Source: Chloroflexota bacterium
Lineage (GTDB): Bacteria > Chloroflexota > UBA6077 > FW602-bin22 > JACPRP01
Direction: 5' to 3'
Length of the DNA stretch: 64,000 nucleotides
Assembly (NCBI GenBank): GCA_023480885.1
Contig: JAMCWX010000046.1
Location: forward strand, 62,001 to 126,000
Positions 4,621-63,502 of the stretch are shown piece by piece. The notes below the pieces were generated by a model. It did no database searches, was not told the DNA's origin, and saw only the letters and a list, made by a program, of their open reading frames with translations. Each line of letters starts with the position of its first letter. The first letter of the stretch is position 1. Made by a program: the position numbers and the translations under genes.

Positions 4621-5427
4621 ATGGCAGTCGACAGATCACTTATCACCAGGCCCGAACAGGCTTTGACCGAAGCCGATGAGATACAGCAGATGCTTGCCGA
4701 TGAGATGAACAGGGACGGGGAGCGTCAGGCGTTTGAGTTGAAGCCGCCTCGATTTGGTATCAGTTCTCAGCTTCAGTTGTTCGTCAACAAGCTGACCAAC
4801 GATACCTACAAGACGCTCGAAGGCGTCGTTATCTTCAGTCGCGAGGTAAGCGGTTACTGGATAGAGGGCGAAAAGGCCCCTGTTTGCAGCAGCACCGATG
4901 GCATCAATGGCATCCCCCGTGGCAGCGACCACAGTCAGCGCTGTGCAGCGTGCAAGTTCAACCAGTGGGGAAGCGATCAAAAAGGTGGGCGGGGGAAAGC
5001 TTGCAAACAAATGCGGCGCCTCATCGTCCAGTTGGAGCAGTCACCGATTCCCGTGATTCTCAGTATTCCGCCCACGTCGATCAACGCATTCGATGAGTAC
5101 TGCTCTGGGCTTGTGACCAGCAAACCCCAAAGGACTTACTTTGCTGTCATAACCAAGATGGCGCTGGACAAGGTGTCCAATCCCGACGGCCAGGACTACT
5201 CCAAGGTCAGGTTCGAGAAGGTGCGTAACCTGATCATCGAAGAGATGTACCAGGTCAGGAAATGGCGTGATGAGTTCCAGAAATACGTCACCGTCGAGAT
5301 TGAGGCCGATGACTATAGCACCACTCCGAGCAACGGCAACGGCGCCACTCCCAACAGCGATTACGCCAATGAGCCGCCGCCCTGGGAGGATGATGCGCCG
5401 CCACCTGAAACGCCGCCAGAGTTATAG
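4621..5427 (+). CDS. putative phage ssDNA-binding-like protein with Zn-binding loop and acidic Pro-rich tail
   Basis: HSQRCAACKFNQWGS...GKACK; C-terminal PPPWEDDAPPPETPPEL; precedes replication genes. Confidence 0.5.
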   Translation: MAVDRSLITRPEQALTEADEIQQMLADEMNRDGERQAFELKPPRFGISSQLQLFVNKLTNDTYKTLEGVVIFSREVSGYWIEGEKAPVCSSTDGINGIPRGSDHSQRCAACKFNQWGSDQKGGRGKACKQMRRLIVQLEQSPIPVILSIPPTSINAFDEYCSGLVTSKPQRTYFAVITKMALDKVSNPDGQDYSKVRFEKVRNLIIEEMYQVRKWRDEFQKYVTVEIEADDYSTTPSNGNGATPNSDYANEPPPWEDDAPPPETPPEL

Positions 5428-5654
5428 GCGGGAGGATGCTGTAGGGGTTAAGTCTGAGGAATAGCATGCCGCTTAGATGCCGATAGGGCGGGGTGCCTAC
5501 GGGCCAAGGGCTTCTGTCGGAGAAACAGGAACGACGCCTACCGACTGTACGTCGTGGCAACCCGTAGGTTGTAGCAACTTTGCCCATGATGATATTTTGC
5601 GTGGCCGCGAAAGCCGGCGGGAATGCAAGGCTTGACGGCTCGGAGAGACGAGCA

Positions 5655-5721
5655 GGGAGCGTAGGCTAATGGTAGACCAGGGCCAAAAGCTCAGGAGTAA
5701 GTCCGATTCTTGCCGCTCCCA
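5655..5721 (+). ncRNA. tRNA-like element, degenerate anticodon arm
   Basis: acceptor GGGAGCG(5655-5661)/CGCTCCC(5714-5720); D-arm-like TAGGCTAATGGTAGACC; T-arm GTAAG-TCCGATT-CTTGC; anticodon arm lacks a canonical 5-bp/7-nt form. Confidence 0.5.
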
Positions 5722-5889
5722 CCGAAACAGTCCGCAGGGGATGATGGGGCAGGAAGAGGGGACTGTTTTGAATTGAGGCGGCGGCGTGGTGGGAACACGC
5801 TAGGCAACATAGGCACGGAACGGGATGTTGCAATCCTGCGCAGGGGCAAGCCGTGCGTGTCCTGTTTCGGGACTGGTTTCTCCGGCCAA

Positions 5890-5914
5890 GCAGGTTCGAA
5901 TCCTGCTCGTCTCA
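5890..5914 (+). ncRNA. canonical T-arm plus acceptor-like 3' strand inside the candidate ncRNA
   Basis: GCAGG-TTCGAAT-CCTGC then TCGTCTC-A; TCGTCTC is exactly complementary to GAGACGA at 5645-5651. Confidence 0.55.
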
Positions 5915-5981
5915 GGGAACAGTACAGGGCTTCACCTGTCCAGGGCCTTTACCCTGATAGAAAAACAGGGAGGTATCGTTG

Positions 5982-6563
5982 GTGTTTACCAGCCAAACAG
6001 CAAAAGTTGCAGCAAATCGAAGATCCGAAATCCTCACGCCAGAACAACGGAGCGATATTGCTCGCCTTGGTGCAGTAGCCAAGAATGCCAAGCATCCTAT
6101 TGGCTTGATGTCGCGCAAAGGCGGCTTGGCTACCCTCTCTAAACTCGGCAGAGACGGACTAGCAAATCGTATAGCTAAGTGGCGACGACGCAACCCGTCT
6201 AATCTGGAAAGGATCGTTGCGGCCTGGCTGGATGAAATCGGAGCCAAATACGAACGCGAGGCGCAAATAAGGGATTGGTACGCTGACTTTGCTGTTTCCT
6301 GTCACGGTAAACGACGTCGACTTATCGAAGCGAATGGGCACGCCTGGCATAACGATAACTGGCACGGAGAGGCCGATAAGAGGGCTGAACGCGACCGAGC
6401 CAAGATAGAAGCGTGGACTGCAGCAGGTTGGGCTGTCCTTGTCTTGCAGGAAAAGGAAATCAAAGACGGGACAGCAAAAGGAAAGCTCATTCAGTTTGTG
6501 AGGGAAACAGATGAAAGGCACACTGAGCCCAAGGATGGACGAAATACAGAAACTCGATTTTGA
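5982..6563 (+). CDS. Vsr/DUF559-like (EDxHD homing-type) endonuclease
   Basis: SNLERIVAAWLDEIGAKYEREAQIRDWYADFAV...RRLIEANGHAWHNDNWHG...RDRAKIEAWTAAGWAVLVLQEKEI; GGGAGGT upstream of GTG. Confidence 0.65.
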   Translation: MFTSQTAKVAANRRSEILTPEQRSDIARLGAVAKNAKHPIGLMSRKGGLATLSKLGRDGLANRIAKWRRRNPSNLERIVAAWLDEIGAKYEREAQIRDWYADFAVSCHGKRRRLIEANGHAWHNDNWHGEADKRAERDRAKIEAWTAAGWAVLVLQEKEIKDGTAKGKLIQFVRETDERHTEPKDGRNTETRF

Positions 6564-12463: not shown

Positions 12464-14680
12464 GTGGACGACTATAAGGCGTTTCTTGAATCGAAGAGGC
12501 TGGTTGTCAGGTCAACGGGGATTGATGTCTCCCTGGATGAGTTGAATGTTTCCGCAAAACCCCATCAAGTCGACTTGACGATGTGGGCACTTCGGAAGGG
12601 ACGCGCCGCGATTCTGGCCACAACGGGCATGGGTAAGACCCTGATGGAGTTGATGTTTGGTCAGCAGGCTGCGGAAAGGTCATTGATTCTTGCGCCCTTG
12701 GCCGTAGCGTACCAGACCGTCAGAGAGGGTGAGAAGTTTGGAATTGACGTGACCTATGCCCGAAATGAAAGCCAGGCTCCCCGTCAAGGAATAACGGTCA
12801 CGAACTACGAATTACTGGAACATTTCGACCCCGACAATTTCGGAGCCGTAATACTCGACGAATCCGGAATCCTGAAATCTTTTGAGGGGAAAACTAGAAC
12901 CGCACTGATTGAGAGATTCAGGTATACGCCTATGCGCCTTTGCTGTTCCGCAACGCCAGCTCCGAATGATATAGCCGAGATTGCTAACCACGCAGAGTTC
13001 TTAGGGATTATGACGCGAGTTGAGATGTTGGCGGCGTTCTTTGTCCATGATGACAAGGGTTGGAGATTGAAGGGCCATGCTCGTGAGCCGTTCTATCGGT
13101 GGTTGGCTTCTTGGGCGATGTCATTACAGAAACCAAGTGACTTGGGGTATTCGGATGATGGGTATATCCTGCCAGAGTTGACCATTGACCCCATCATCAT
13201 TCCCAGCGATTACGTGCCTGAGGGTCAGTTGTTCGCTATCTCACTCAAAGGCGTGTCGGACAGGGCTCGAGTCCGAAAAGCCACAATGATGCAACGAGTG
13301 CTGGTAGCGGCAGACCATATAAAAGCAGAGCCGAATGAGCAGTGGCTAGTCTGGGTTGGCTTGAATGATGAAGGGCGAGAGTTGGCGAAGATGATTCCAA
13401 GCTCAGTACTCGTGGAAGGTAGCCAGTCGCCTGACGAAAAAGCCGATGCGTTAACCAGATTCGCTAACGGCGAAATTAAGGTTCTTATCAGTAAGGTGTC
13501 TATCGCGGGGTTCGGAATGAATTTTCAGAGTTGCGCCAGAATGGTCTTCGTTGGGCTCGGTGACAGCTATGAACAGTATTTTCAAGCAATCCGGCGTTGC
13601 TGGCGTTTCGGTCAGAAGCGACCAGTCAAGGTTCACATTGTCCTAACCGACTTGGAGGAAACGATTTACGAGAATGTTTTACGGAAAGAGAAGGAAGCTG
13701 AAGCCACGGCGGCAGAGCTTGTCAAGCACGTGGCTGAGTTCGAGAAAGCCGAGATAAGCACGGTGGATAGGGGTAGTTTTATGTACGAAACGAAAGATGA
13801 GAGCGGGCAAGGCTGGCGCTTCATGCTGGGGGATAGTTCCGAGAGATTGCGAGAGTTGGAATCGCATAGCGTTGACCTATCTATTTTCAGTCCACCTTTC
13901 CTGAACCTATATACATATTCCAACACGGAGCGTGACTTAGGCAACAGTTCCACGACTAGACAGTTTTGGTCTCATTTTCGATTCATCATCAGGGAATTGG
14001 CTCAGCTGACAAAGCCAGGGCGTAATGTCTGCGTTCATGTCGCTCAAATCGCTAAGCAAAAGTCTAAGGATGGAGTGATTGGCTTGCGCGATTTCAGGGG
14101 TGAGACTGTCAGGCATTTTGAGCGAGCAGGGTTCGTGTTTCACGGAGAGGTGTGTATCGACAAAGACCCCCAAGCCGTTGCTATCCGCACTCACTCAAAG
14201 GGCTTGGCTTTCATTCAGCTTAGCAAGGATGCAAGTTGGATGCGTCCGACGATTGCAGACTATATCCTGGTCTTTCGTGCTCCCGGCGAAAATCAAGTGC
14301 CGATTCATCCAGATATCACCAACGATGAATGGATAGAGTGGGCCCGGCCAATCTGGTACGGAATCAAAGAGGGTGAAACATTGAATGCTTCTGAGGCTCG
14401 CAGTGATGACGATGAGCGTCACATTTGCCCACTTCAACTGGGCACCATTGAGCGCTGCATCAGGCTTTGGAGTAATCCGGGGGAGTTGATTCTTTCTCCC
14501 TTTGGCGGAATTGCGAGCGAAGGATACCAAGCCATTAAGTTGGGTCGTCGATTCATTGGCGTTGAGTTAAAACCTGAGTATTTCCAGGCGGGTCTCAAAA
14601 ATCTCCGTGAAGCCGAACGCCTAGCCAAGCAAGTTGATTTGTTTCAGTGGGCCGAGGGGGAATCGGAGGCGGTATCGTGA
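12464..14680 (+). CDS. SNF2/DEAD-type helicase fused to a DNA methyltransferase
   Basis: helicase: ATTGMGKTL, VILDESGILKSF, SATPAPND, FVGLGDSYEQYFQAIRRCWRFGQKRPV; MTase: DLSIFSPPF and GELILSPFGGIASEGYQAIKLGRRFIGVELKPEYF. Confidence 0.85.
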   Translation: MDDYKAFLESKRLVVRSTGIDVSLDELNVSAKPHQVDLTMWALRKGRAAILATTGMGKTLMELMFGQQAAERSLILAPLAVAYQTVREGEKFGIDVTYARNESQAPRQGITVTNYELLEHFDPDNFGAVILDESGILKSFEGKTRTALIERFRYTPMRLCCSATPAPNDIAEIANHAEFLGIMTRVEMLAAFFVHDDKGWRLKGHAREPFYRWLASWAMSLQKPSDLGYSDDGYILPELTIDPIIIPSDYVPEGQLFAISLKGVSDRARVRKATMMQRVLVAADHIKAEPNEQWLVWVGLNDEGRELAKMIPSSVLVEGSQSPDEKADALTRFANGEIKVLISKVSIAGFGMNFQSCARMVFVGLGDSYEQYFQAIRRCWRFGQKRPVKVHIVLTDLEETIYENVLRKEKEAEATAAELVKHVAEFEKAEISTVDRGSFMYETKDESGQGWRFMLGDSSERLRELESHSVDLSIFSPPFLNLYTYSNTERDLGNSSTTRQFWSHFRFIIRELAQLTKPGRNVCVHVAQIAKQKSKDGVIGLRDFRGETVRHFERAGFVFHGEVCIDKDPQAVAIRTHSKGLAFIQLSKDASWMRPTIADYILVFRAPGENQVPIHPDITNDEWIEWARPIWYGIKEGETLNASEARSDDDERHICPLQLGTIERCIRLWSNPGELILSPFGGIASEGYQAIKLGRRFIGVELKPEYFQAGLKNLREAERLAKQVDLFQWAEGESEAVS

Positions 14681-29043: not shown

Positions 29044-30696
29044 ATGGACGAAGAAGCGAATGGCGTACGCAAGGTTAGGAGACAAGTCGGAGTGGGCAAG
29101 AAGCAAGGCGTGGTGAAGACCAAGGTTATAAGTGATAAGGTCACCAAGTACGGCTCCATTGGCTACACCGTGCGTATGCGCGAGAAGATGTATGAGCCGG
29201 GGCTGACTAGCTCTAATATCAACATTCCGCATGACCCGACAGAGCAGCGCAAGTGGTTGCGTTACTTCTACATCTCAGATGCGTATTTCGGGCACCTTAT
29301 CGACTTCTTCTCGGAGTTCCCGCAGACGGGGACACATAACACGCACCCTGACCCTGCTATCAAAAAAGCCTACGACGAACTCTGTGCGCGCATTGATATT
29401 GATACATATCTCCGTGACATCTTTTTTGACTATTACCTGTTCGGCGATGTTTTCCCCTTTGTCTATATTAATCCATCTTCGGGCGAGGTGACCGAGACGA
29501 CGCTACTCAATCCCGATGATGTGGTCGTCAAACGAATTATTACGTCCGACAAGGAGCAACTATATATAATTCCACCACAGGAATTAAAGGATGTGGTGTC
29601 TAGTCGCAAGCCAAAGGAACTCTACGACAGGCTTAGCGCTGACCAGCGCTATTACATCAGAAATAATCAGCCGATTCCATTGAACCCGATGCAGGCCGAC
29701 CACTTGAAGCGGGGCAACTCGCGCTATTCTCTGACGGGCGCGGCGCCTGGCTTCCGTGTGTTCCGCGCACTCATTCAACGCGACAAACTCCGAGATGCGC
29801 AGTGGGTCATGGCCGACAGGTTCACGACGCCCATCAGGATTTTCGCTTTGACAGGAATCGACGGGCAACGTCCTCCGACGAATAACGACGTGCTCGCTTT
29901 CATGAATATGTTGGAGATGGCTGACGATGATCCGAGCCAGGCCGTCGTAACGAACTTCAACGTCAACGCGCAATTGCTCGGAACGTCGAGTCAATGGGGG
30001 CACATTTACCAGGATATCAATTCCCTGGTAGACGAGTTTCTGGTCAGCTTCGGCGTCAACCGTTCCTTGATTACGGGCGGTGAAGTGACTTACGCCAATG
30101 CCGCCGTTGGGCTGGAAGCGCTCATTCGTCAGTTCGCCACGGCGCAGCGCCTCGTGGCGCGGGTGATTGAGCGACTGATTTACGAGCCTTTCGCCAAGCT
30201 GCAGGGTTTCGTCGATAAAGACGGCAATCCCTGGCCGGCGGATCTCGAGTGGAATAAGCTCGTTGACGACGAAGCCAAGAAGCAGGAGTTACTGAAAGGC
30301 TTGCGCAGTATGGCGCCTCCGCACATCTCTGCCAAGACGATGCTTAACGCTTACGGCCTAGACAGTGCCACTGAGGCTAAGGAAATCGAGAAGGAACGTA
30401 GTAGCGTGTTTGATGCGAATGCGCCGAGGGATGCGCTGCCGAGTCCCGATGAATCGTTTGACGAGGACTTGGGTACTGGCGGAATACCTACTGGCGAGCC
30501 TGTCGATGAGGAAGCACCAAGCGAAGTTCCTGTGGGTGGAATTCCAGGGGAGGAGAATGCAGAGCCTGTGCCTTTTGTACAGAAGCAGCAATCCAAGCGA
30601 GCGGCAAAGCAAATCGCTAAACTCGCGGGAATGCTTGGTGTTGACGAGTTGAACGAAGTTTTGGAGAAACACGGTTATGGGTTGGTAGCACTGTGA
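29044..30696 (+). CDS. portal protein
   Basis: 550 aa; YISDAYFGHLIDFFSEFP, FFDYYLFGDVFPFVYINPSSGEV, FGVNRSLITGGEVTYANAAVGLEALIRQ. Confidence 0.75.
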   Translation: MDEEANGVRKVRRQVGVGKKQGVVKTKVISDKVTKYGSIGYTVRMREKMYEPGLTSSNINIPHDPTEQRKWLRYFYISDAYFGHLIDFFSEFPQTGTHNTHPDPAIKKAYDELCARIDIDTYLRDIFFDYYLFGDVFPFVYINPSSGEVTETTLLNPDDVVVKRIITSDKEQLYIIPPQELKDVVSSRKPKELYDRLSADQRYYIRNNQPIPLNPMQADHLKRGNSRYSLTGAAPGFRVFRALIQRDKLRDAQWVMADRFTTPIRIFALTGIDGQRPPTNNDVLAFMNMLEMADDDPSQAVVTNFNVNAQLLGTSSQWGHIYQDINSLVDEFLVSFGVNRSLITGGEVTYANAAVGLEALIRQFATAQRLVARVIERLIYEPFAKLQGFVDKDGNPWPADLEWNKLVDDEAKKQELLKGLRSMAPPHISAKTMLNAYGLDSATEAKEIEKERSSVFDANAPRDALPSPDESFDEDLGTGGIPTGEPVDEEAPSEVPVGGIPGEENAEPVPFVQKQQSKRAAKQIAKLAGMLGVDELNEVLEKHGYGLVAL

Positions 30697-58992: not shown

Positions 58993-60588
58993 ATGAAATG
59001 GCAAGGCTTGCATGAGGCTGAGGACTTCGCATTGGGAACATTCGATAAGGTGTTCTTCGACAAGCGTTCACGCACTGATGCGCATCTGCGTTTGGGCGTG
59101 GTCGACACAGAGTACATCCGGCTGCTGAACACCGACGCTGCGTTCGTGTACATCGGCACTTGGCTTGATGTCGGCTATTCAGGCTCATATTCCACCAATG
59201 TAAAGACGACGCGCACGGCAACAGATAAAGTTGAGATCACCTTCACGGGTGTGGCTGTTGAGGCCAGATTTTACGGCTGGCCAGGGGACAGCCAATATGC
59301 GCCGGGCATTATGGGAGCGCAACTTGACGGCATTGAGTTAGACAATATCGACTGCTACGCGGCTGTAGCAGCCTGGAAAACCAGGCGCATTTATACGACT
59401 TACGGCAGCCATAAACTGACCATTAGCAATCTGGCGATGGCAAACAAGCTAGGTATCCCCGTGGGTGCACCAATCGACACCATTGGCACGAGTACGGCGC
59501 GACGGGTAATAGCGAGCAAGACGGCCGGCAGTACGACGCGCCCCGGTACATGGACGATATTCGCCAAGAGTGCGACGACATACACGGTAATAAATCCTGA
59601 GGCTATTGAGAGCGCCATCCAGACTTGCAGTGACACCGACATTAAGACAGCACTCATCGACGGCGTTGACCTTATCGTGCGTAGCGGCTTGACGACCGGG
59701 GACAAGGCCACGATCACCACGAAGGCCGTTGAGATAAACATCGACTGCGCCGACTACTGGACACAGTTCACGGCGACCGGCAAGTATACCACTCCCGTCT
59801 TCCCGACTAACAGCGAAAACACCATCTGGGTGATGGCGACAATGGACAGTGAGTTGGGTGATTACGGCTCGGTGAGCGTCAAGGCCGCATATCCCCCGAC
59901 GACGGATGAGGTAAGCGGTAACCTGGTGAACGGAGAGGCGGCCAGCATCATCAATCAGGCCATCAACTGCCAGTTGGAGATTACACTGAACACATCGGAC
60001 AGGCAAAAATCTCCAGGTATCTCGAATCTGGAGCTTCATTACTTCGAGATTGGTAAAGACACACTCCTGAACAAGTTGCCGTCCGTCTATAAGCGCTGGG
60101 TTGTAAGCACCTTCATCAAGATATTCGGAAGCGTGGCAGTGGCGCTCTGCCAACTTCGCAGCGAGATGGAGAGGCTGATTAGTTCCTATGCTCTGAGTGG
60201 GGCTTCGCGGGATTACTTGGAGAGCTGGGGTGCTGACTTGAACCTACTGCGCAAGGTAGGCGAATCCGATGCCAATTACAGGGCCCGACTTATAACGACG
60301 TTGCGAGGCAACGTCGATGGCGGCACAATCGACTTCATTCGCCAGGTCGTGAGCCAGTACATCGGGACTGACGTGACAGTGCGTCAACTCCCTGGGAGCA
60401 CGAAAGCCTGGGTGCTAGGCATATCGAAGTTAGGTGTTGATACTTTTCTTGGCGCTACCCCGCAAGGTTTTTGGTGGTATGAGGTAGTTTGCCCTGCGAA
60501 CTATCAAGGCGTGATCAAAACGCAGATCAATGACTTGATAGCCTATTTGAAACCTTGCGGAACGCGCGTTCGTATCCGTTACGAATAG
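58993..60588 (+). CDS. baseplate/tail protein (I-like)
   Basis: YLESWGADLNLLRKVGESDANYRARLITTLRGNVDGGTIDFIRQVVSQYIG. Confidence 0.6.
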   Translation: MKWQGLHEAEDFALGTFDKVFFDKRSRTDAHLRLGVVDTEYIRLLNTDAAFVYIGTWLDVGYSGSYSTNVKTTRTATDKVEITFTGVAVEARFYGWPGDSQYAPGIMGAQLDGIELDNIDCYAAVAAWKTRRIYTTYGSHKLTISNLAMANKLGIPVGAPIDTIGTSTARRVIASKTAGSTTRPGTWTIFAKSATTYTVINPEAIESAIQTCSDTDIKTALIDGVDLIVRSGLTTGDKATITTKAVEINIDCADYWTQFTATGKYTTPVFPTNSENTIWVMATMDSELGDYGSVSVKAAYPPTTDEVSGNLVNGEAASIINQAINCQLEITLNTSDRQKSPGISNLELHYFEIGKDTLLNKLPSVYKRWVVSTFIKIFGSVAVALCQLRSEMERLISSYALSGASRDYLESWGADLNLLRKVGESDANYRARLITTLRGNVDGGTIDFIRQVVSQYIGTDVTVRQLPGSTKAWVLGISKLGVDTFLGATPQGFWWYEVVCPANYQGVIKTQINDLIAYLKPCGTRVRIRYE

Positions 60589-60599
60589 AGGTGATATAG

Positions 60600-61772
60600 A
60601 TGAGGCGACGGGATTACATTGCGCAGCAATTAGTTGATGATGGCGACCTTGATGGCGACTCCAATGAGTTCTATCAGGGTTTCATTAACCTTTTTACAGA
60701 TATAGTTTCAAGTGATTGCGTCATCAGTGGCTTAGCTGCCTCTGCTGGCGGGGGAATGAACATCAGCGTTGCCATCGGCACGGCTTACTTTCAGGGCAAA
60801 CGCATGAACATCAGTGCGCCTGCCACTGTAACGCTGGCCGCCGCTGACCCCACAAATCCACGAATCGACTGCATCTACGTCAAGACAACGCTTACCAGTT
60901 CTTCTTCTGGTGGTGATTCTTTCCTTGAAGACGTAGCGTCGGTTGATAAGGTAACTGGCACACCCACCGTATCGCCAGTTGCGCCAGCCGTGACAGGTGG
61001 CACGAAACTGGCTGAGGTTTACGTTACGGCTGGAGCGGTATCTATAACTTCAGGGAACATCACTGATAGTCGCTTCACGCTCCGAGGCTTGTACGAGTTG
61101 GCGAATCACCTCAAAGCATCGGCGGCGAACGTTCATGCGCATTCGCAACTCAGCGGCGTGACGGCAGACCAGCATCACCCACAAGCACACACACTTACTT
61201 CACATACGACACGGGCACACTCTGAGTTGACGGGCATCGGGACAGATGACCACCACGCACAGACGCACACTCACGCCTCACACACTGGGATTGGAGCAGA
61301 TGACCACCACGCACAGACGCACACTCACGCCTCGCACATTGGGATTGGAGCAAATGACCACCACGCGCAATTGCATGCGGCGAGCCATGTCTCGGGCGGT
61401 GGAGACGCTTTATCGGGCACGCTGGCTGTGAACATCACAGGGAACGCCAACACGGTTGATGGCCAGCATGGGCCAGCGAGTGGCTACATCATGGGTGCGA
61501 CGGGTGGCAACCAACACATCGAGAAGTTTTGCGCTAACATCGGCCCACTAGACAATGGCATCACCAAGACGGTCGCTTTCACCTTCATTAATCCTTTTTT
61601 TGCTAATGTGGTGGCCGTGGAGAGTGTTGGCGTCGTGGGCGGTGGCTCACGGCTCGATCACTATTTGACCGCCAAATCGGTAACTGGTGCCACAGTCGCT
61701 ATGTTGAATTTCTCAGGAGGAGTAATAATAGATCCACTCTGGGTGGAGCTTATCGCCGTAGGAGATGACTGA
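60600..61772 (+). CDS. tail fibre/collar protein with His-rich repeats
   Basis: DDHHAQTHTHASHTGIGADDHHAQTHTHASHIGIGANDHHAQLHAASH. Confidence 0.7.
   Translation: MRRRDYIAQQLVDDGDLDGDSNEFYQGFINLFTDIVSSDCVISGLAASAGGGMNISVAIGTAYFQGKRMNISAPATVTLAAADPTNPRIDCIYVKTTLTSSSSGGDSFLEDVASVDKVTGTPTVSPVAPAVTGGTKLAEVYVTAGAVSITSGNITDSRFTLRGLYELANHLKASAANVHAHSQLSGVTADQHHPQAHTLTSHTTRAHSELTGIGTDDHHAQTHTHASHTGIGADDHHAQTHTHASHIGIGANDHHAQLHAASHVSGGGDALSGTLAVNITGNANTVDGQHGPASGYIMGATGGNQHIEKFCANIGPLDNGITKTVAFTFINPFFANVVAVESVGVVGGGSRLDHYLTAKSVTGATVAMLNFSGGVIIDPLWVELIAVGDD
61245..61375 (+). repeat. 54-bp tandem repeat (about 2.4 units) in fibre gene
   Basis: GATGACCACCACGCACAGACGCACACTCACGCCTC starts at 61245 and 61299, third diverged copy at 61353. 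Confidence 0.85.
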
Positions 61773-62139: not shown

Positions 62140-63264
62140 TCACTGTTGAGTTGAGCATTCTCTCAGTATCCTACTCATCATCCTCGCTATTTCCTCATCC
62201 TGCTTCTTGATTGCGTGAGCATAGATTGACATCGTGATGTTGGCATCGGCATGGCCAAGCCGAGCGGAGACAGCGGTTATCGGAAGATTGTTCCCCAGTA
62301 GCAGGGTGGCGTGTAAGTGCCGTAGTTGATGGGGACTAATCTCCCTTATCCCCAGCTTCTTGCATTGCCTGGTCAAGGCATGCTCAATCATTGATCGGCC
62401 TAGAGGTTCACCTTGAATAGTCGTGAAGATCAACTCGTTATCTTGCCAAGCGTCACCTGCCTTGCCGTGCCACTCTATTTGTTGCTCCTGTTGTCGCTTC
62501 AGAGCGTCGACACCCTCAGGGGGCAGCGCGATTGTTCTGAATCCAGATTCCGTTTTCGGGGCATTTTCTAGCCACTCGCCCTTAACCTTGCGTAAGCTTC
62601 CCCTTATCGTGATTGTGCCGTTAATCAAATCGACATCTGACCAGTGCAAGGCCATTAGCTCTCCGATGCGGCAACCACTGGCCGCAGTCACGAGCCACAA
62701 CGGGCCTAGTCGATGTTCCCGTGATGCTTTGAGGAAGGCGCGCAGTTCTTCGGGACTCCATAGGCTCTTACGCTCTGACTTGCTTCGAGGAACGAGTACC
62801 CTGTCGGCAGGATTGCTGACTAGCCAACCCCAAAGAACAGCCATCTTCAAGGCTCTATGTAGAAGGGAATGAACGAAACTGGGTATACGCTTTCGTCCTT
62901 TGGCGCTCAGGTCATTGTAAAGCATCTGTAGATGTGCGGGATTAAGATCACGAAGTTTGATGCGTCCCAGCCGTGGCCTGATGTGGCGGTCGCAGATATC
63001 CTGATAGTCGGCAATCGTGCCAGCTCGTAGGGAATGACTCGCCGTCTCAAGCCACAGGCCTAGCAAATCATTGACGGTCTTACGGCCAGGATCGGGAAGC
63101 GTGTTGTCGCTACCGATGGCGCGTTGCAGTTCTGCGAGTTTACGTTTTGCCTCTCGCTCGGTCTTGGCGTAAACCGTTTTGCGCTTGCCGTTTATCTGTA
63201 GACTGGCACACCATTTACCGTCAGAACTTCTTCGGTAGACGGTGCCAGCGTTGCCCGAGGGCAT
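62140..63264 (-). CDS. int: tyrosine recombinase / phage integrase
   Basis: TAASGCRIGELMALHWSDVD; HQLRHLHATLLL; VSARLGHADANITMSIYAHA. Confidence 0.9.
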   Translation of the reverse strand: MPSGNAGTVYRRSSDGKWCASLQINGKRKTVYAKTEREAKRKLAELQRAIGSDNTLPDPGRKTVNDLLGLWLETASHSLRAGTIADYQDICDRHIRPRLGRIKLRDLNPAHLQMLYNDLSAKGRKRIPSFVHSLLHRALKMAVLWGWLVSNPADRVLVPRSKSERKSLWSPEELRAFLKASREHRLGPLWLVTAASGCRIGELMALHWSDVDLINGTITIRGSLRKVKGEWLENAPKTESGFRTIALPPEGVDALKRQQEQQIEWHGKAGDAWQDNELIFTTIQGEPLGRSMIEHALTRQCKKLGIREISPHQLRHLHATLLLGNNLPITAVSARLGHADANITMSIYAHAIKKQDEEIARMMSRILRECSTQQ

Positions 63265-63420
63265 CTGATTGTCCTCTCCGATGCCCTGGCGCTTGTTCGT
63301 GTAGCAGAAATGTAGCAGCGAGTTGGTGAATTGACGCTACATCGTCTGCGGTGAGGGATAACCTGGAAGGATTAGCTACAACATATTGTGGTTGATCCGC
63401 CTAAACGCTGCAAGACCGGG

Positions 63421-63502
63421 TGGGGAAGCGGGGACTCGAACCCCGACGCCTTTCGGCACATGATCCTAAGTCATGCTCGTCTACCAGTTCCGACACTCCC
63501 CC
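63421..63502 (-). tRNA. tRNA-Leu (anticodon UAG)
   Basis: minus strand GGGGGAG...GACTTAGGATC...GGGGTTCGAGTCCCC...CTTCCCCA; 7-bp acceptor, class II variable arm. Confidence 0.9.

Follow-up and report, generated by a model that had tools for sequence, protein, structure and literature searches.

An orphan tRNA-derived element, moderately interesting for its nested design and of putative function, is recognisable in the sequence of an intergenic gap of a Chloroflexota prophage, where an anticodon-defective tRNA-like at positions 5655-5721 of the plus strand stands between the acceptor strands of a second, partial tRNA-like module. The initial annotation, in which the gap was taken for a non-coding, structured segment with a tRNA flavour, was right in these respects and wrong on the extent and the likely kind of the RNA, so that it is partly supported.

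The intergenic gap and its setting

The window, i.e., the whole 64-kb stretch of DNA analysed, is located in a prophage, the draft genome of the host being 3.1 Mb. The integrase gene (62140-63264, minus strand) adjoins a tRNA-Leu gene (63419-63502), and this junction (window 62140-63502) is likely the prophage attachment site, while the second attachment end was not located. The prophage encodes a tail sheath and a Baseplate J protein, which indicates a contractile tail. Both genes flanking the gap are on the plus strand. The upstream one (4621-5427), initially annotated as SSB-like, belongs to the phrog_23155 family, with conserved Cys residues and a weak match to Gp3-like (PF18897); the downstream one (5979-6563, with the start at 5979 or 5982) encodes a DUF559/Vsr-like endonuclease with a weak match to the mobile-intron endonuclease 3r3p and is preceded by the ribosome-binding site GGGAGG at 5968-5973. 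The phrog_23155 stop (5427) and the endonuclease start are 551 nt apart, and the gap as analysed is 545 nt long. The genes for RecU, a replication initiation protein and a DnaC-like loader follow the endonuclease gene at 7.4-9.7 kb. Farther along, a single ORF of 738 aa (12464-14680) combines helicase and DNA methyltransferase domains, its relatives of 51-65% identity being found in actinobacterial, Bacillota and other genomes.

The initial claim that there is no convincing coding sequence between the flanking genes was borne out, the codon log-odds being negative in all six frames of the gap, with 2-9 stops. The many perfect hairpins noticed there are also real: five perfect inverted repeats with arms of at least 9 nt were counted against 0.38 expected (none of 500 shuffles), together with one perfect inverted repeat of 12 nt (one of 500 shuffles), and a count of five was reached in the window only here and at about 16.5 kb. 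Three of the five long repeats are not independent, because they reuse the same motif, GAAACAG/CTGTTTC. The supposed structure of about 540 nt stands for its 3' part, where the predicted fold of 5640-5914 is more stable than those of dinucleotide shuffles (z = -3.3, 1/200) and 5722-5914 taken alone gives z = -2.5, and fails for the non-coding 5' part (5434-5639, plus strand), whose structure is at chance level (z = +0.06). Since z = -3.3 is reached by about 2% of the 275-nt segments of the prophage, stability alone is weak, supporting evidence and no proof, and the tRNA-like elements are the stronger evidence. Other 275-nt stretches with stable predicted folds on the plus strand are 60501-60775, 1761-2035 and 29921-30195 (z of -4.5, -4.2 and -3.5, respectively, with 25 shuffles each), the first reaching from the end of one coding region into the following one.

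Two tRNA-like modules

The suspected tRNA-like flavour was traced to a match of the Rfam tRNA family (RF00005) at 5655-5721 (67 nt, plus strand) and to a second acceptor/T-arm module around it. The match was obtained in a scan of 5300-6100 with permissive filters, taking matches up to E <= 5, and passes the gathering score (37.2 bits against a cut-off of 29, E = 4e-6); a fast Rfam scan of the whole window misses it, and ARAGORN calls it only at a relaxed threshold. All seven pairs of the inner acceptor stem (5655-5661/5714-5720) and all five of the T stem, including one G-U, are present, the T arm being at 5697-5713; the D loop keeps its GG, the discriminator is A5721, and position 55 of the T loop is C, not T. 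The short anticodon arm at 5680-5692 can be drawn as 4 bp with a 5-nt loop or as 5 bp with an A-A mismatch and a 7-nt loop with C33. Thus, the inner tRNA-like should not decode because of this defective arm, no 7-nt anticodon loop that carries U33 and is closed by a sound stem having been found in 5655-5721.

The outer tRNA-like, on the same strand, consists of the 5' acceptor strand GAGACGA (5645-5651), the consensus T arm GCAGG-TTCGAAT-CCTGC (5890-5906), found by the Rfam and T-arm scans, and the 3' acceptor strand TCGTCTC with the discriminator A5914 (5907-5914), which stands at the exact acceptor spacing after the T arm. The acceptor strands were recognised by sequence complementarity, with seven of seven Watson-Crick pairs between 5645-5651 and 5907-5913, and with the adjoining T-stem strand they make up a perfect 12-nt inverted repeat (arms 5645-5656 and 5902-5913) that ends exactly at the acceptor end; the complement of a given 12-mer is expected within 245 nt only about 1.5e-5 times by chance. 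A scan for T arms with an acceptor complement more than 75 nt away returned this one alone for the window and, with both strands covered, one weak case for 1.0 Mb of phage DNA. As the outer acceptor strands flank the inner element, the inner tRNA-like is nested in the second acceptor/T module. In the two modules together 24 of 24 acceptor and T-stem pairs are intact, and the D and anticodon arms are eroded; internal duplication within the element was not significant.

Several alternative helices are predicted between and across the modules. A possible 9-bp helix, the 5' strand of which (5722-5730) abuts the inner tRNA-like, would pair with 5862-5870 and is mutually exclusive with the hairpin at 5725-5768, whose 9-bp perfect stem AAACAGTCC/GGACTGTTT (5725-5733/5760-5768) is favoured by the energy model. 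The hairpin GTCCTGTTTCGGGAC at 5859-5873 is weakly terminator-like. GCAGG at 5652-5656 can lengthen the outer acceptor to 12 bp, which would break up the outer T stem and two inner acceptor pairs, and the energy models, which leave out D-loop/T-loop contacts, prefer this 12-bp helix with the outer T stem broken.

Known RNA families and the search for relatives

The tRNA family was the sole one supported in Rfam, both by the gathering score and at E <= 5. The Rfam comparison proposed in the initial annotation was, accordingly, positive for tRNA and gave no supporting match for GOLLD, ROOL, OLE, HEARO, tmRNA or the group I/II introns: under permissive filters the covariance models of the first four stayed without a match at E <= 5, as did those of the group I and group II intron catalytic cores. 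The supposition of a large ornate phage RNA of the GOLLD/ROOL type was not upheld, with no match of such a family at that threshold, no excess structure in the 5' 200 nt and no homologue in the collections searched. A similarity of 5478-5503 to a conserved part of RNase P RNA was set aside, as no RNase P model had a match at E <= 5.

In its acceptor, T arm and D loop, 5655-5721 fits the model of phage-encoded tRNAs (RF00005), unlike which it has a defective anticodon arm and is surrounded by a second acceptor/T-arm module. GOLLD members are in many cases longer than 800 nt, and the family is characterised by a conserved 3' region with covariation and by assembly into a 14-mer. GOLLD is conceptually the closest RNA, its linker containing tRNAs in some cases (PMC12286853), and both RNAs are non-coding, with tRNA elements, in a phage context; however, its model does not match and the 5' part of the gap is without excess structure, so that length, structure and sequence support for GOLLD membership is missing. 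ROOL, a prophage RNA often found near tRNA islands (PMC12286853), shares the prophage location and differs in that its model has no match here at E <= 5. The tRNA-like domain of tmRNA is similar in that an acceptor and T arm close a longer RNA, but the T arm alone matches the model (8.4 bits against a cut-off of 84), no tag reading frame was called, and neither the model nor ARAGORN identified a tmRNA. YrlA, the bacterial Y RNA, is likewise a non-coding RNA with a tRNA-like module, whereas the prophage element is not permuted and has no YrlA model match, and the partner TROVE/Ro60 protein is absent from the genome assembly. Y RNA was considered because L157, a prophage-like contig related via its helicase-methyltransferase (65% identity), has a Ro60 gene (TROVE and vWA domains, L157:884-2308) and, immediately upstream of this gene, a YrlA-like Y RNA that includes a tRNA-like module (731-862; 25.3 bits with E 0.0023, under the gathering score).

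By DNA similarity, the element matched only itself in its own genome and had no homologue in 100 relatives; BLAST gave none among 50,697 phages, 72,556 plasmids and 399 genomes of the phylum, the matches in the latter being tRNA T arms and isolated short ones, mostly in coding DNA, with nothing collinear. Pattern searches of viral contigs yielded chance matches only. Single-sequence covariance models of the nested element (R1) and of the 5' domain (R2) detected no relative among window, phage and other loci totalling 608 kb, where a match in L103 was rejected as a single tRNA, nor in the 399 genomes of the phylum, where one strong R1 match (44.6 bits) was rejected as a normal tRNA cluster near EF-Tu. 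The latter demonstrates that the nested model can also be matched by a pair of adjacent tRNAs. The nested element was also absent from 80 viral loci with a phrog_23155 relative and from ten loci at helicase-methyltransferase relatives (51-65% identical), most of which are too short to hold the homologous position. Relatives of the endonuclease gene were not found in viral contigs, and two weak ones in one genome were without the RNA. With no homologue found in the collections searched, there is no covariation support.

Possible role and competing explanations

RNase P, RNase Z and the CCA-adding enzyme all recognise the acceptor/T minihelix. We tentatively read 5640-5914, with a confidence somewhat short of even, as a tRNA-derived structured module of an early-operon transcript that is recognised by the host tRNA-processing enzymes, with the anticodon-defective tRNA-like 5655-5721 presented within the acceptor stem of the second, partial one. 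Since the preserved minihelices are of the kind recognised by these enzymes, the host may cut the polycistronic transcript there, which would yield separate phrog_23155 and endonuclease mRNAs and leave stable tRNA-like ends. The intact acceptor/T pairs, with the D and anticodon arms eroded, suggest a processing or end-protecting role rather than decoding. The Rfam tRNA match, the placement of the 12-nt repeat, the rarity of long-range T-arm/acceptor pairs and both fold scores (5640-5914 and 5722-5914) also count for the processing reading, as do anticodon-defective tRNA-likes between genes in phages sharing phrog_23155. Thus, L096:2834-2899 (33.3 bits), which immediately precedes the phrog_23155 gene in another phage, has an intact acceptor and T arm and an anticodon arm without a proper loop, and L154:346-416 is an anticodon-defective tRNA-like slightly below the cut-off; such intergenic tRNA-likes are scarce, 77 contigs having one or two, and no firm association with phrog_23155 is therefore claimed. 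Against the processing reading are counted the missing homologues and covariation, C55 of the inner T loop, the 12-bp helix of the energy model, and the R1 match to two ordinary adjacent tRNAs. If functional, the element would mean that the phage employs tRNA shapes lacking an anticodon to signal cutting or end protection between early-operon genes, and it would provide a concrete case for the odd tRNA-likes of other phages. It is rather improbable that it represents a new kind of phage RNA, built as one tRNA-like domain within the acceptor stem of a second, where GCAGG (5652-5656) would choose between the 12-bp helix and two free tRNA folds, so that folding and the tRNA-processing enzymes would together set the timing of the operon-transcript cutting.

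A relict phage tRNA cluster of no present function, with a decayed tRNA at 5655-5721 and the 3' half of another at 5890-5914 beside a free-standing homing-type endonuclease, is rated almost equal to the processing element in probability. Both modules are recognisable yet broken as tRNAs, a normal tRNA cluster matches R1 at 44.6 bits, normal and odd tRNAs are present in related phages, the endonuclease gene adjoins, and the 5' half of the gap is without structure, all of which would suit an ordinary remnant of such a cluster; however, chance is unlikely to have put a perfect 12-nt complement exactly at the acceptor end, the acceptor/T pairs are fully kept despite the eroded D and anticodon arms, and 5722-5914 alone is stabler than chance.

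Three other explanations are given much lower probabilities. A large multi-domain phage RNA over the whole gap, of the GOLLD/ROOL type or of a new such family, with the tRNA-like inside, would agree with the phage context, the missing coding sequence and the tRNAs sometimes held in GOLLD linkers (PMC12286853), and is unlikely in view of the absence of an Rfam match at E <= 5, the 5' 200 nt unstructured by z-score, a gap shorter than GOLLD, and no relatives found for either half. The replication genes at 7.4-9.7 kb and the inverted repeats would fit a DNA-level element (a phage replication origin or single-strand initiation site), which we consider very unlikely: no iterons were found in the gap, there is no AT-rich stretch (every 50-mer has at least 46% G+C, and the G+C of the region is above that of the window), and the tRNA-type motifs would be left unexplained. 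Least probable of all is a tRNA split by an intron or insertion (5652 to about 5858), the excision of which would restore a working tRNA, the endonuclease being the mobility gene; complete acceptor strands stand at both ends and an intron-type endonuclease adjoins, but group I/II introns had no match at E <= 5, and virtual splicing gave 101 tRNA calls against 6-331 in shuffled controls, not above the controls.

Odd tRNAs were also observed in other phages. The phage contig L153 contains two tRNA-likes of 98 and 108 nt (608-705 and 1246-1353, minus) with 30-40 extra nt in place of the anticodon arms, and a called tRNA-Pyl with the anticodon CTA (423-501, minus), a possible amber suppressor. The phage tRNA L103:1501-1575, upstream of a ParB-type-like gene, has an anticodon loop of eight nt (AGCC) and is possibly a frameshifting or degenerate tRNA.
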